A DNA stretch of 64,000 nt from Candidatus Binatia bacterium (lineage in GTDB: Bacteria; Desulfobacterota; Binatia; UBA12015): positions 248,001 through 312,000 of the forward strand of contig JAQWJE010000039.1 of the NCBI GenBank assembly GCA_029248525.1, read 5' to 3'. The position numbers and the translations under genes are program-made. Every line of letters starts with the position of its first letter. Within the stretch, counting starts at the first letter, position 1. The notes under the pieces are model-generated. The model made no database searches, was not told the DNA's origin, and was given only the letters and a program-made list of their open reading frames with translations. Shown here piece after piece: positions 417-5,673 of this stretch.

Positions 417-1022
417 ATGGCAAGTGGTGAAGCAACAGTACCTGAGACCTCTGACGACGCGGCAGCCGTTGCGTCCAGAAGACGCGAAGAGCAGCGTCTC
501 GAGCGCGCCAAGCGACAGCGCGAGAAAGCGCAACTCGGGGGCTTATGGTCGCGGCGCGACGTGATCGGACGCGTCGGTTGGATGCTTTTTGGCGTCTTCT
601 CGCTGACTTTCCTGCTTGCGGCTCTTCGAGCGGCTTTCCCCCGGATCCTGTTCGTCCCGCCGAGCAGTTTCAAGGCAGGCGTGCCCGGCGATTTCGCCAT
701 CGGCGAGGTGGATCGCAAATACGAGAAGGATTTCCGGGTCTGGATCGTGCGCGAACCCGAAGGGTTCTACGCATTGTGGGCGAAATGCACCCATCTCGGC
801 TGCACCCCTCGTTGGCTCAACGCCGAAGCAAAATTCAAATGCCCTTGTCACGGCAGCGGCTTCTACAAAAGCGGCATCAACTTCGAGGGGCCGGCACCAC
901 GGCCGCTGGTCCGCCTGAAAATCGCTCTGGCCGAGGACGGCCAGATCAAGATCGACAAAAGCACCAAGTACCTGTTCGAAAAGGGCCAGTGGGGAAAACC
1001 TGGTTCGTTCCTGAAAGCTTGA
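417..1022 (+). CDS. Rieske iron-sulfur protein of a cytochrome bc/b6f-type complex
   Basis: 201 residues. A charged N-terminus with a basic, helical stretch (about residues 20-48) precedes one membrane helix (about 53-78), then a periplasmic Rieske domain. The two cluster-binding boxes are clear: CTHLGC at 124-129 and CPCHGSG at 142-148, giving two Cys and two His ligands for a [2Fe-2S] centre plus the two disulfide cysteines. The subunit takes an electron from quinol at the outer site of cytochrome b and passes it to a c-type cytochrome. It is the first clear gene of the operon that continues with both cytochrome b halves. The membrane helix has no obvious twin-arginine pair of canonical spacing, although SRRDVIG just before the helix could act as one, as in many Rieske proteins. 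Confidence 0.93.
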   Translation: MASGEATVPETSDDAAAVASRRREEQRLERAKRQREKAQLGGLWSRRDVIGRVGWMLFGVFSLTFLLAALRAAFPRILFVPPSSFKAGVPGDFAIGEVDRKYEKDFRVWIVREPEGFYALWAKCTHLGCTPRWLNAEAKFKCPCHGSGFYKSGINFEGPAPRPLVRLKIALAEDGQIKIDKSTKYLFEKGQWGKPGSFLKA

Positions 1023-1098
1023 TTTCCGTCCGGCACGACAATGTGCCGAGACCGTCACGTTTGGCTGAATAACATTTCTGCCCTGAGGAGGGGCCCCC

Positions 1099-1869
1099 AT
1101 GAGTTGGTGGGACGAAACAAAAGAACAAATCACGGAGTCGCAGGTTTGGAAGTCAATCTTCCGCCACGGCTATGATGATACGCCGCGAAACCGCATCTTG
1201 ATGGTTTCGGGGAACGTCTGGCTTCATCTTCACCCGTCGAAGGTGCGCCGGCATGCAACACGGCTGCGCTTCACGTGGTGCATGGGCGGAATCACCTTCC
1301 TCATGTTCTTGATCACGGTCGTCACGGGCATCTATCTGATGTTCTACTACCGGCCCGTGACCCAGTACGCCTACGCGGACATGAAGTACCTCGAGTTCGA
1401 CATGCCCTTCGGTATGGTAATGCGCAACATGCACCGCTGGGCAGCACACGGCATGGTGATCGCTGTATGGCTGCATATGTTCCGGGTGTTCCTGACCGGT
1501 TCCTACAAGCCGCCTCGCGAGTTCAACTGGATCGTCGGCGTCATCCTTCTCGTCCTGACTTTGTTGCTGAGCTTCACCGGCTATCTGCTCCCTTGGGATC
1601 AGTTGGCGATCTGGGCTGTAACCGTGGGTTCGAACATGGGTGCGGCGACGCCATTAATGGGGAACGAGGGGCCGTTCAAGGAGTTGCTCGGAGCAAATCC
1701 GATCTACGACGTGCGGGCCTTCCTCTTCGGTGGCGGCGAAGTCGGACCGGCTACACTGCTTCGGTTTTACATTCTGCACTGCATTTTTATTCCGCTCGTC
1801 ACGAGTCTTTTCCTGGCGGTTCATTTCTGGAGAATTCGTCGTGATGGCTTCTCTGGTCCGGCACTGTAG
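1099..1869 (+). CDS. Cytochrome b, N-terminal half (cytochrome b6-like)
   Basis: 256 residues, preceded by a good ribosome site (GAGGAGG just upstream of the ATG). It carries four membrane helices and both b-haem pairs: H112 and H126 in the helix around HRWAAHGMV...LHMFRV, and H227 and H242 in the last helix. The 14- and 15-residue spacings match cytochrome b6. A GYLLPWDQ motif (161-168) sits in the loop of the quinol-oxidation region. The protein ends after the fourth helix, so cytochrome b is split as in b6f and menaquinol:cytochrome c complexes rather than fused as in the classical bc1 protein. The other half follows after a very small gene. Confidence 0.93.
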   Translation: MSWWDETKEQITESQVWKSIFRHGYDDTPRNRILMVSGNVWLHLHPSKVRRHATRLRFTWCMGGITFLMFLITVVTGIYLMFYYRPVTQYAYADMKYLEFDMPFGMVMRNMHRWAAHGMVIAVWLHMFRVFLTGSYKPPREFNWIVGVILLVLTLLLSFTGYLLPWDQLAIWAVTVGSNMGAATPLMGNEGPFKELLGANPIYDVRAFLFGGGEVGPATLLRFYILHCIFIPLVTSLFLAVHFWRIRRDGFSGPAL

Positions 1870-1886
1870 GGGAGGGGGACTATCAG

Positions 1887-1970
1887 ATGCGCGTACTCGT
1901 TCTTCCAATTCTTTTCGTCGTAATCGTCTGGGCCTTGTACGTTCTGGCCGCGCCCCCAAAGGATCTCTAG
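1887..1970 (+). CDS. 27-residue single-helix membrane peptide between the two cytochrome b halves
   Basis: A short ORF with an ATG at 1887 sits in the 104 bases between the cytochrome b halves. It is preceded by a purine-rich ribosome site (GGGGAGGGGG, 7 bases before the start). The peptide begins MRVLVLPILF, continues as one hydrophobic helix and ends with the polar tail APPKDL. Its stop lies 3 bases before the ATG of the next gene, so it fits translation within the operon. Size and topology resemble the tiny PetG/PetL/PetN subunits of cytochrome b6f, but homology to them is only a guess. Confidence 0.6.
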   Translation: MRVLVLPILFVVIVWALYVLAAPPKDL

Positions 1971-1973
1971 ATC

Positions 1974-2780
1974 ATGGCGACAACCACGAAACCACCCGCA
2001 ACCGGCGGCCGCGTTGAAGTCACACTGAAGAAGGCCTTCGGGCCCGGTGACGACAAGGTTCATACGTGGCCTCATCTGATTCGAGCGGAGTTTCTCTGCG
2101 GCCTTCTGGTGACCATCTTCATGATGGTCTGGGCCCTCTCGATCGATGCCCCGCTCGAGGAACCTGCGAACCCGGCGAGAACGCCAAACCCGTCCAAGGC
2201 ACCTTGGTATTTCCTCGGTCTGCAGGAGATCCTGGTGTTCTTCGACCCATGGCATGCGGGCGTGGTCTTGCCCAGCCTGATCATCGTCGGGCTGATGGTG
2301 ATCCCCTACATCGACATCAATCCCGCCGGCAACGGCTACTACGTCTGGGAGTCCCGGAAATGGGAGCTTCTGACCTTTTTCTTCGGGTTTCACATCCTGT
2401 GGGTCTCGCTGATCGTTATCGGGACCTTGTTGCGCGGTCCCGGCTGGAACTGGTTCTGGCCCTGGGAGCGTTGGGACCCTCATCTGGTTGAGGCCCTGAC
2501 AAGCGTCAACTTCCCGTACCTTCTGGGGATTCGTGACTACTTTTGGTCAGCGATCTTCGGGCTGGTGAGTGTGATCCTGTTTTTCACCGTTGGCACCGCT
2601 GCGATGTATGCATGGTGCGTTTGGCTCAAGGGCAAGGAATTCATGGTGCGTTGGGGCATGCCGCGATTCCTGATCACCTCGTTCCTCTTTCTGAACATGA
2701 TGGGAACTCTGGTGAAGATGCTGATGCGACACCTGTTTAACATTCAGTATGTGATGGAGACTCCCTGGATTAATATCTGA
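1974..2780 (+). CDS. Cytochrome b, C-terminal half (subunit IV-like, extended)
   Basis: 268 residues. It corresponds to subunit IV of b6f-type complexes: one helix (about 36-57), the quinol-oxidation-site motif KAPWYFLGLQE (75-85), then helices at about 97-113 and 131-153. The canonical PEWY motif appears as APWY, with Pro at the Glu position; related PPWY-type motifs are known mainly in low-potential (menaquinone) complexes. Unlike the three-helix subunit IV, the protein continues with two further hydrophobic segments (about 188-217 and 231-254). No c-type haem motif is present. It follows the 27-residue peptide after 3 bases and is completed structurally by the cytochrome b6-like half. Confidence 0.9.
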   Translation: MATTTKPPATGGRVEVTLKKAFGPGDDKVHTWPHLIRAEFLCGLLVTIFMMVWALSIDAPLEEPANPARTPNPSKAPWYFLGLQEILVFFDPWHAGVVLPSLIIVGLMVIPYIDINPAGNGYYVWESRKWELLTFFFGFHILWVSLIVIGTLLRGPGWNWFWPWERWDPHLVEALTSVNFPYLLGIRDYFWSAIFGLVSVILFFTVGTAAMYAWCVWLKGKEFMVRWGMPRFLITSFLFLNMMGTLVKMLMRHLFNIQYVMETPWINI

Positions 2781-2789
2781 AGCAGCCTC

Positions 2790-2963
2790 ATGCGATTTTA
2801 TTTGGCAAAAACACTTCAGATGGCAGGAATTTTAATAGTAGGAATCGGCCTGTTTCAGAGCCTGGCAGAAATTGCCGGCCTCAGGTTCGAGTTGGAGATG
2901 CTGGTAGCCGGAACTGTGGTGTTCACGGCAGGACGACTGATCGAGAGTCGCGACGGAGACTGA
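2790..2963 (+). CDS. 57-residue two-helix membrane peptide
   Basis: An ATG at 2790, 9 bases after the stop of the cytochrome b C-terminal half, opens a 57-residue ORF. It starts MRFYLAKTLQMAG and has two hydrophobic segments (about 8-27 and 36-48) joined by a short Glu-containing loop, with a charged tail ending in RLIESRDGD. No strong ribosome site is visible, so it may be translated by coupling. It fills most of the gap between cytochrome b and the octahaem cytochrome. I do not recognise the family; position suggests an accessory subunit of the quinol:cytochrome c complex. Confidence 0.5.
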   Translation: MRFYLAKTLQMAGILIVGIGLFQSLAEIAGLRFELEMLVAGTVVFTAGRLIESRDGD

Positions 2964-2985
2964 ACCCCGGCGCGAGTTGGAAACC

Positions 2986-5673
2986 ATGGCGAGACGAGAT
3001 CTTAACCTCGAAGATGAAAAGCGCAGTTACGCAGGATTGTGGCTGTTGTGTGCAGCGTTGCTTGTGGTGGGTGCCATCTGGGCCCTCCTCGATGACACGA
3101 CGCTTCGGCGCCCCTGGAAACAGGTCCAGAACGAGTTCTTTGCTCTGGAGAAGGGCCGGCAAATCAAGGCATTGGAAGCCGAAGAGGCTTCTCTTGGCGG
3201 CAATGAGACCTATCAGGAGCTCCAAGCGAACCTGACCAAAGCTCAAGACGCGCTGAAAGAACCTTCGACTGCGGCGGAAATTGCGGCATTGGAGGCAAAG
3301 CTTCCCGGCCTCGGACTTGATAACCGCGATGCCGATATCAGGGTCCGGTTTATCAAGAGCGAACTCGAAGTCGCCAAATTCAAATACGATCACGCGATCC
3401 AGGAAGGTGGCGACGTCGGGGCCGCCCGTGAGCATCGCGACGAGTTGAGTCGCCAGAAAGAGACTCTCGAAGCCGCTTTCGCCGAATCACAGGCGGATGT
3501 CGCGGCGGTTGAGGGCGAAATTGCGAAGTTGCGCGCTCCAGTAACGGCCGCACAGAAAGAGCTGGATACGGTCGCCTCGGAGAGGGACGCGATACAGGTG
3601 AAGCTCGACGGCATGAAGTCCGTGATTGGTATCTTGGAGACCGACCGGATTCCGACGATTCATCAAATTGTCCTGCCGGACTTCGATGTGAACAACTTCG
3701 AGCAGCCAGTGGGACGTGTGGACCGTTGTGTTACTTGTCATATCGGGATTGACCGGGCAGGTTTCGAGGACGTCGGCCAGCCGCTTGCGACTCATCCGGA
3801 CCGCTCCCTCTATATCGGAAAGCATCCAAGCAATCAGTTCGCCTGTACGCCTTGCCACGACGGGCAGGGCGTAGCCTTGAACTCGGTAGAACAAGCCCAC
3901 GGTGACGTAGCGTTTTGGCTGCAGCCCTTATTGCGAGGCCCGCAGCAACAGTCGCGTTGTATCGATTGCCACCGCGAGGTCGTCGACCTCGAAGGTGCGG
4001 GGAACATCGCCAAGGGCGAGCAACTCTTCGAGCAACTTGGCTGTCACGGATGCCATCTGGTGGCCGGTTACGAGGAACTCGACAAAGTCGGACCAAGCCT
4101 GGCCCGGGTCTCTGCCAAAGTCGACCCCCAATGGTTGGTCGATTGGATCCAGAACCCTCAGGCCTTCCGGCCCCGAACCAAAATGCCGAATTATATGTTC
4201 TCGGACGAAGAAGCGACTGCTGTGGCCGCCTACGTCTGGACCTCCAGTCAGGAGGATGGGGCCGAATGGGAAGCCCGCCAAGTGAGCGACACGGGGGTCG
4301 ACGCATCGAACCCCGAACTGGTCGCCGAAGGCGAACTCGTATTTAACCAGGTTGGTTGTCGAGGTTGTCACGCGGTAGGCGAGGAGCAAGTCTCCCGGAG
4401 TCTCGGAGTGGACAAGGACTGGGCGCCCAATCTCTCCCGCGTCGCGATGAAGACCAATGGCGAGTTCCTCTACGCCTGGGTCAAGAACCCCAAGGGGTAT
4501 AATGCCCACACCCGAATGCCGAGCCTGCGCCTTTCCGATCAGGAAGCCCGGGCCGTATCTTCGTATCTTTTGAGTATCTCTCCCACGATGGAGCCGGACC
4601 CTGAAACAGTGACCGTGGCCATGCTCGAAGACCCGGAGCGTGCCGAGCAAGGCAAGGCGCTGATCCGCAAATACGGGTGTGCCGGGTGTCATACGATCAA
4701 CGGGATGGAAAACGAGTCTCGTATCGGTGTGGAGCTCTCCGCCTTTGCGGCCAAGGGCATCGAAGAGCTCTTCTTCGGAAACGCCAAGGGCATCGACCAC
4801 AATTGGAATGCCTGGACCTACGGGAAGCTCGAGAACCCTCGCGTCTACGCCACCGAGCACGTGGAAGGAATTATGCCCAACTTCCATCTGAGTCACGAGG
4901 ACATCATCAATCTTCGTGTGTGGCTCCTGAGCAGAAACGATCGCCAGCCTCCAATGAGCTATCGGCAACCGGGCTACGACGGCCGGTGGGCAAAAGTTCA
5001 AAAGGGCAGACGGTTGGTCGACAAATACAACTGTCAGGGTTGTCACGAAATCGACGGCAAGGGCGGCTATATCAACGCTCTCTACGAAGATAACCCGACC
5101 GAGGCACCTCCGATTCTCTACAACGAGGGCGGTAAGGTTCAACCCGAGTGGCTTTACGGCTTCTTGCAGAACCCCGCGCTCCAGCCTCTGCGTTTCTGGC
5201 TGAAGGTCCGGATGCCCACCTTCCCGCTCTCGGCTGATGATACGACATCGATTGTGGAGTATTTCACAGCGAAATCCGAGCTGGAAAACCCGTATTTCTT
5301 CTGGGATCCGAAAGTCGATTCCACCCCCGAGTTGTTGCACAACGGCGACCTGCTGATGTCGGAAGAATATTTCTCCTGCTGGTCGTGTCACGTGATGGGC
5401 GACAAGACACCGGGCGGACCCATGGAGTATTGGGCACCAAACCTGGCCTACGCTCACGAGCGCTTGAACCCGGACTGGATTATTCGCTGGATCGAGGACC
5501 CGCAGTCCGAAATGCCGGGAACCAAGATGCCGGCATTCTACCCGGGCGGCCCGGAGGATATCTTCGATGGGGATGAGGCCAAGCAGATCGTGGCGATGCG
5601 AGATTGGATCATGTCGCTCGATTATATGAGCGGTAATGCGGCAGCGGGTGACGAAATGGTGCAGGAACCATAG
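2986..5673 (+). CDS. Membrane-anchored octahaem c-type cytochrome with coiled-coil stalk
   Basis: 895 residues from the ATG at 2986 (an in-frame TTG at 2977 is the alternative). One membrane anchor (about 15-38) is followed by a long Glu/Lys/Ala-rich, probably coiled-coil region (about 45-215) and then eight CXXCH haem sites at residues 248, 287, 325, 353, 458, 565, 683 and 798. The last five are each followed by an xMP motif (TKMP, TRMP, GIMP, VRMP, TKMP) typical of the Met ligand in class I cytochromes c, so they look like tandem mono-haem domains. The first three lack such a Met and may form a separate triple-haem unit. It is the last gene of the bc operon and is the likely electron acceptor from the Rieske protein. 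Confidence 0.9.
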   Translation: MARRDLNLEDEKRSYAGLWLLCAALLVVGAIWALLDDTTLRRPWKQVQNEFFALEKGRQIKALEAEEASLGGNETYQELQANLTKAQDALKEPSTAAEIAALEAKLPGLGLDNRDADIRVRFIKSELEVAKFKYDHAIQEGGDVGAAREHRDELSRQKETLEAAFAESQADVAAVEGEIAKLRAPVTAAQKELDTVASERDAIQVKLDGMKSVIGILETDRIPTIHQIVLPDFDVNNFEQPVGRVDRCVTCHIGIDRAGFEDVGQPLATHPDRSLYIGKHPSNQFACTPCHDGQGVALNSVEQAHGDVAFWLQPLLRGPQQQSRCIDCHREVVDLEGAGNIAKGEQLFEQLGCHGCHLVAGYEELDKVGPSLARVSAKVDPQWLVDWIQNPQAFRPRTKMPNYMFSDEEATAVAAYVWTSSQEDGAEWEARQVSDTGVDASNPELVAEGELVFNQVGCRGCHAVGEEQVSRSLGVDKDWAPNLSRVAMKTNGEFLYAWVKNPKGYNAHTRMPSLRLSDQEARAVSSYLLSISPTMEPDPETVTVAMLEDPERAEQGKALIRKYGCAGCHTINGMENESRIGVELSAFAAKGIEELFFGNAKGIDHNWNAWTYGKLENPRVYATEHVEGIMPNFHLSHEDIINLRVWLLSRNDRQPPMSYRQPGYDGRWAKVQKGRRLVDKYNCQGCHEIDGKGGYINALYEDNPTEAPPILYNEGGKVQPEWLYGFLQNPALQPLRFWLKVRMPTFPLSADDTTSIVEYFTAKSELENPYFFWDPKVDSTPELLHNGDLLMSEEYFSCWSCHVMGDKTPGGPMEYWAPNLAYAHERLNPDWIIRWIEDPQSEMPGTKMPAFYPGGPEDIFDGDEAKQIVAMRDWIMSLDYMSGNAAAGDEMVQEP

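Follow-up and report, generated by a model that had tools for sequence, protein, structure and literature searches.

In an operon of an uncultured Binatota bacterium, flanked by the genes for the two parts of cytochrome b, we have identified a 27-residue ORF which, as judged from sequence comparisons, is a real gene: it is selected as protein, linked exclusively to the petB–petD gap, homologous to other ORFs in this gap and fused to PetD in one family. Its product is very probably a translated and conserved accessory subunit, with a single transmembrane helix, of the Binatota b6-type Rieske/cytochrome b/multihaem-c quinol oxidase. A gene of 27 residues is of the kind that annotation would normally skip, and literature searches brought up, among the records listed, no description of this small helix gene. 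Overall, we judge that a complex of known kind has here a small-subunit gene that is new and unusually varied in its architecture.

The operon and its two small genes

The window (the whole stretch of 64,000 nucleotides that was analysed) carries at 417–5673 an operon with the order Rieske, PetB, 27-residue ORF, PetD, 57-residue ORF and a cytochrome c with eight CXXCH motifs. Its features are as follows, with the evidence in brackets.

417..1022, + strand, Rieske iron-sulfur protein (Pfam/NCBIfam searches)
1099..1869, + strand, cytochrome b6-like subunit PetB (family searches; alignment with cytochrome b6)
1869–1878, + strand, GGGGAGGGGG, purine-rich ribosome site serving the 27-residue gene (predicted anti-Shine-Dalgarno pairing)
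1887..1970, + strand, gene of the 27-residue single-helix membrane peptide (ORF, conservation, selection, profile search, hydropathy)
1974..2780, + strand, subunit-IV-like C-terminal cytochrome b subunit PetD (family searches; match to b6f subunit IV)
2790..2963, + strand, 57-aa membrane protein, the second small one without annotation (retained in this operon among relatives; profile search)
2986..5673, + strand, 895-aa cytochrome c with eight CXXCH motifs (family searches, with the sequence from 2992)

The small ORF starts with ATG and encodes MRVLVLPILFVVIVWALYVLAAPPKDL; its TAG stop (1968–1970) ends three bases upstream of the petD ATG at 1974. The peptide has one hydrophobic helix, with a Kyte-Doolittle mean of 2.95 over residues 3–19. 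For GGGGAGGGGG, pairing to a generic anti-Shine-Dalgarno sequence was predicted to yield −11.0 kcal/mol; among 20-base windows drawn at random from these loci, 0.4% reach a value as low. This site is among the strongest of the operon (petB −11.7, petD −4.7, Rieske −3.1 and 57-aa ORF −0.4 kcal/mol), and in 27 of the 42 separate gap ORFs the ribosome site falls within the lowest 10% of background energies. The sequence-only reading, which had described an ATG with a strong purine-rich ribosome site, a 27-residue one-helix ORF between the cytochrome b halves and a stop three bases before the next start, thus agrees with the coordinates, the hydropathy and the pairing energy; the predicted site also supplies the translation signal whose absence at the ATG would, according to that reading, speak against the gene.

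The same reading took the flanking genes for halves of cytochrome b, and comparison with solved structures bears this out and shows the cytochrome to be of b6 type. PetB matches cytochrome b6 at 2e-48 (best bc1 chain, 5.7e-27), while the best solved relative of PetD is b6f subunit IV, with the best match covering the first 122 residues of PetD, the longer of the two proteins. PetB Cys61 is aligned opposite Cys35 of cytochrome b6, which we take to be the ligand of haem c (c_n/c_i). With its Rieske protein, two-part cytochrome b and partner cytochrome c, the operon has the make-up of a cytochrome bc complex, here one with a b6-type cytochrome b split from subunit IV, to which the small peptide is assigned by operon linkage. 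The 895-aa cytochrome c is the probable electron acceptor of the complex.

The second small gene lies between petD and the gene for the multihaem cytochrome c, a place conserved in relatives, and its 57-aa product probably has two helices. A profile of 15 members found it in 89 of 148 class genomes, close to the 91 with petD-like matches, and the gene is present also in lineages without the 27-residue gene. The consensus of the protein is FYxAKxLQxxGxAxVGxALFxG...ELxLxxxGxxxFxxGRLLExR. No Pfam or NCBIfam family scored over cut-off for either the 57-aa protein or the 27-residue peptide.

Outside the operon, the same genome has a second cytochrome b (G000:C49:703023-703568, locus L144) in a 505-codon open frame, and one NrfD-family match, which could belong to an alternative complex III. 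A survey of Binatota reports, in the text available, alternative complex III in all genomes; its main text does not contain the word 'Rieske' (PMC8262859).

Conservation and selection of the helix gene

The petB–petD gap was compared in 93 non-redundant loci out of 124. Left out were the window itself (L001), 27 loci with identical petD DNA and four without petB (L023, L050, L059 and L069); the petD DNA of L033 is identical to that of the same-family locus L005. L026 was retained despite a petB match that breaks off at residue 111; in L026 and its duplicate L057, where the match ends at about this residue, the small ORF and petD are intact, and the break may be an assembly error or real decay. 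A separate ORF was found in 42 loci, a fused helix in seven (three from Binatota, four from Myxococcota) and neither in 44. One locus, L101, had first counted as 'separate' and was reassigned manually to 'none', its ORF having no shared motif and a score of 2.9 bits. It is the one look-alike hydrophobic ORF among the 44 loci scored as lacking the gene, which indicates that a hydrophobic ORF is rare by chance in this gap.

Within the family of the window the same gap ORF is present in 11 of 11 non-redundant loci (the window and L002–L011), three of them with GTG starts. Three further genomes of the same family or species (G004, G010 and G497; 88, 81 and 63% complete) yielded no petD match at a cut-off of E ≤ 1e-30, which makes them uninformative on the presence of the small gene. 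Selection was assessed on the first 23 codons of 23 one-helix ORFs, with the start codon excluded. The pN/pS ratio was 0.376 within the family and 0.395 for the 23 ORFs taken together; none of 300 and none of 60 column shuffles, respectively, came as low. By codon position, changes in the family amount to 0.27/0.16/0.50 and fall mostly on the third; frame +1 has 12 stops, and frame +2 is open in the family with the opposite bias. The low pN/pS, the third-position bias and the stops in frame +1 argue that the ORF is selected as protein. The sequence-only reading had suggested looking in this gap of related genomes for a short ORF with synonymous-biased changes, and had named loss of the frame in close relatives as evidence to the contrary; the ORF is kept, its frame is intact and its changes have the anticipated bias.

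A profile of 18 one-helix peptides was used in a six-frame search of the 148 class genomes. It gave 47 matches at E ≤ 0.1, of which 39 are in the petB–petD gap (placement judged by eye from coordinates) and eight elsewhere, all with E ≥ 0.0129; all 37 matches with E ≤ 0.0031 are in the gap. Families absent from the profile (f9, f11, f13 and f15) contributed 16 of the 39. Six genomes in which a gap ORF can be seen by eye (G024, G025, G031, G038, G462 and G480) escaped the profile. When two-helix, extended and fused forms from f8, f9, f11 and f13 were scored alone, they reached 16.7–34.2 bits, with 0 of 300 shuffles of each scoring as high. A chance ORF is ruled out by the conserved frame, the selection on codons and the confinement of strong profile matches to the gap; relocation of the gene in the genomes scored 'none' is not borne out either, there being no strong profile match outside the gap in the 148 class genomes.

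Alignment of 23 cores that cover every Binatota form shows V3, P7 and A21 without variation, R2 in 22 of the cores and P23 in 21; the pattern R-V...P...A-x-P is kept across one- and two-helix forms. The conserved residues lie on one face of the helix (peak at 100–102 degrees, p of 0.007–0.08 depending on the choice of borders), a statistic that is marginal for two of the three choices.

Architectural forms and their history

The 42 separate ORFs comprise 23 one-helix forms (26–31 residues), 13 N-terminally extended forms and six two-helix forms. The extended form constitutes family f9, with an N-terminal extension of ∼13 residues and a total of 44–50. In eight f9 loci (L109–L111, L113 and L116–L119) an unusually long stretch of ∼200–277 bases separates the small ORF from the conserved part of petD; the locus DNA of these eight gave no Rieske match. 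Fusion of the helix to the N-terminus of PetD is seen in three Binatota loci of one family (L018, L022 and L048), where the fused part carries two helices. An AlphaFold model of the fused PetD (L047 with 28 relatives) is of low confidence (mean pLDDT 61, pTM 0.40); its two predicted N-terminal helices are the only part that agrees with the fusion reading, and it holds no information on packing.

A quick tree of PetB plus PetD was built for the 93 loci; the program flagged long outgroup branches. Parsimony on this tree requires three changes for presence or absence of the gene, and seven for six states together (the least possible being five). The fused two-helix form makes one clade (support 99), as does the extended form (100). 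The first-branching clade of 29 Binatota loci is without the gene, and so is a nested clade of eight; the branch joining the 53 rows has support of 90 and is not starred. The probable history on this tree is a single gain inside the class and a single loss. When 395 genomes of the phylum were searched with a profile built from all the Binatota forms, 10 genomes came up at E ≤ 0.01; six are known class members and the other four have partial matches with E ≥ 0.001. The gene is restricted to part of one class.

Several class genomes have a divergent petB–petD pair without the small helix, which forms its own clade (L070, L071, L120, L121 and L124). It is ∼39–42% identical in PetD, and one genome, G486, carries both kinds of pair.

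Proposed role, alternatives and known small subunits

The natural fusion to PetD is the best evidence for subunit status, and a small membrane subunit of a b6-type complex, as the sequence-only reading had proposed, is the best, putative, reading of the peptide; we infer its translation, stoichiometry and function. In b6f, subunit IV begins on the n-side of the membrane. Since the fusion puts the C-terminal end of the helix where subunit IV begins, the stand-alone peptide would be inserted N-out/C-in, an orientation with which its basic tail is in line; the two-helix form would have its N-terminus inside. R2 would mark the periplasmic border of the membrane and the KP(R/K) tail the cytoplasmic one. 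Through one conserved face (V3, P7, F/M10, L17, Y/W/F18 and A21) the peptide may pack beside the first PetD helix, near the seam where the split halves of cytochrome b meet, and there may stabilise assembly, the dimer or the lipid/quinone surroundings. It would carry no cofactor, since it has no haem-ligating motif. As 44 of the 93 loci lack the gene, the peptide is not essential to such a complex. According to the available text of PMC1540425, PetN in b6f lies against the first subunit IV helix, with an Arg–Asp bond between them, an arrangement that the peptide could copy.

The gene may, as a side benefit, also couple petD translation to its own. Were coupling the whole function, the ORF would be a leader delivering ribosomes to the weak petD start and the peptide itself would be inert. 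The petD ribosome site does lie inside the small ORF and is the weaker one (−4.7 versus −11.0 kcal/mol), with stop and start three bases apart; however, coupling needs neither protein-level selection, nor the R-V...P...A-x-P pattern, nor the PetD fusion, and in the 13 f9 loci the stop comes 160–277 bases before the HTWPH region of petD (90 in the window), so that we regard an inert leader as highly unlikely. Gene order and tiny size would suit equally well a factor that assists assembly of the split cytochrome b, during insertion or haem loading, and does not last as a subunit, and the 44 loci without the gene mean that the complex can be made without the peptide. Still, the covalent PetD fusion in one family fits a resident helix better, which leaves an assembly factor improbable.

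It is hardly credible that the peptide is a true homologue of PetG, PetL, PetN or PetM, diverged beyond recognition. These four, single-helix subunits of ∼29–38 residues from a b6-type complex whose cytochrome b is likewise split, are of the same size class, and the peptide, one short transmembrane helix, falls within the ∼27–40 residues of b6f small subunits; its inferred N-out/C-in topology beside subunit IV is that described for PetN in the available part of PMC1540425. On the other hand, the tree places the origin of the gene inside one class and not at the class base. The best of two profiles gave 4.1 bits (PetG), a score reached by 6 of 300 PetG shuffles (up to 10.3), all scores being within reach of shuffles, and a PDB search with the peptide found none of the four subunits at E ≤ 10. 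The suggestion in the sequence-only reading of a bacterial counterpart of PetG/PetL/PetN is therefore without support as far as descent is concerned: the peptide is an analogue of PetG/PetL/PetN/PetM in place and in probable topology, and common descent is not supported by sequence. It differs from them in having its gene between petB and petD, in an operon with a multihaem cytochrome c, and in having two-helix or subunit-IV-fused variants.

In some PetD proteins of the Myxococcota group (L060–L063 and L141) the N-terminus carries a helix with the motif (P/G)DN(I/V/L)P. Like the Binatota helix it is hydrophobic, is found at the same point of the operon and is fused to PetD; it is one helix, whereas the Binatota fusions have two. 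Against profiles of the Binatota helix, two of the L060–L063 helices score like weak relatives and two like shuffles. A likeness of the Myxococcota helix to PetG had been noted by eye, but a PDB search with it found no PetG. Among 19 further regions from the Myxococcota phylum, L140 lacks petB and L141 has the fused PDN-type helix; the remaining regions, with frames read by eye, show no comparable helix in the gap.

The ExtO/ExtP/ExtQ/ExtS proteins of the Geobacter ext operon resemble the present set in comprising a Rieske protein, a b-type cytochrome, a membrane protein and multihaem cytochromes. PetB (270 bits) and PetD (52.2 bits) are both below the cut-offs of the NCBIfam equivalogs for ExtP (290) and ExtQ (150), and no helix gene is listed between extP and extQ in the text available of PMC5877670. 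Accessory, lineage-restricted subunits on a minimal bc complex have a further parallel in bacterial bc1. There a supernumerary subunit, a different protein, is reportedly present, for example in Rhodobacter sphaeroides (PMC10041115).

Single-helix subunits are known mainly from the oxygenic b6f complex, and the reason for their existence is still argued. We hold it an even chance that Binatota independently added a set of tiny membrane subunits to a b6-type complex encoded outside a photosynthesis operon, the 27-residue helix having its own origin and the 57-residue protein two helices; both genes are conserved and have been missed by family libraries. If this is true, living relatives display the evolutionary stages of the helix gene: how it arose, was extended at the N-terminus, went from one helix to two, became fused with subunit IV and was lost. 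They would provide a natural series for testing the roles of small subunits. With an example that is bacterial, lineage-restricted and variable, pairs of related complexes with and without the helix, together with a natural fusion, would make the role of such a subunit directly testable.
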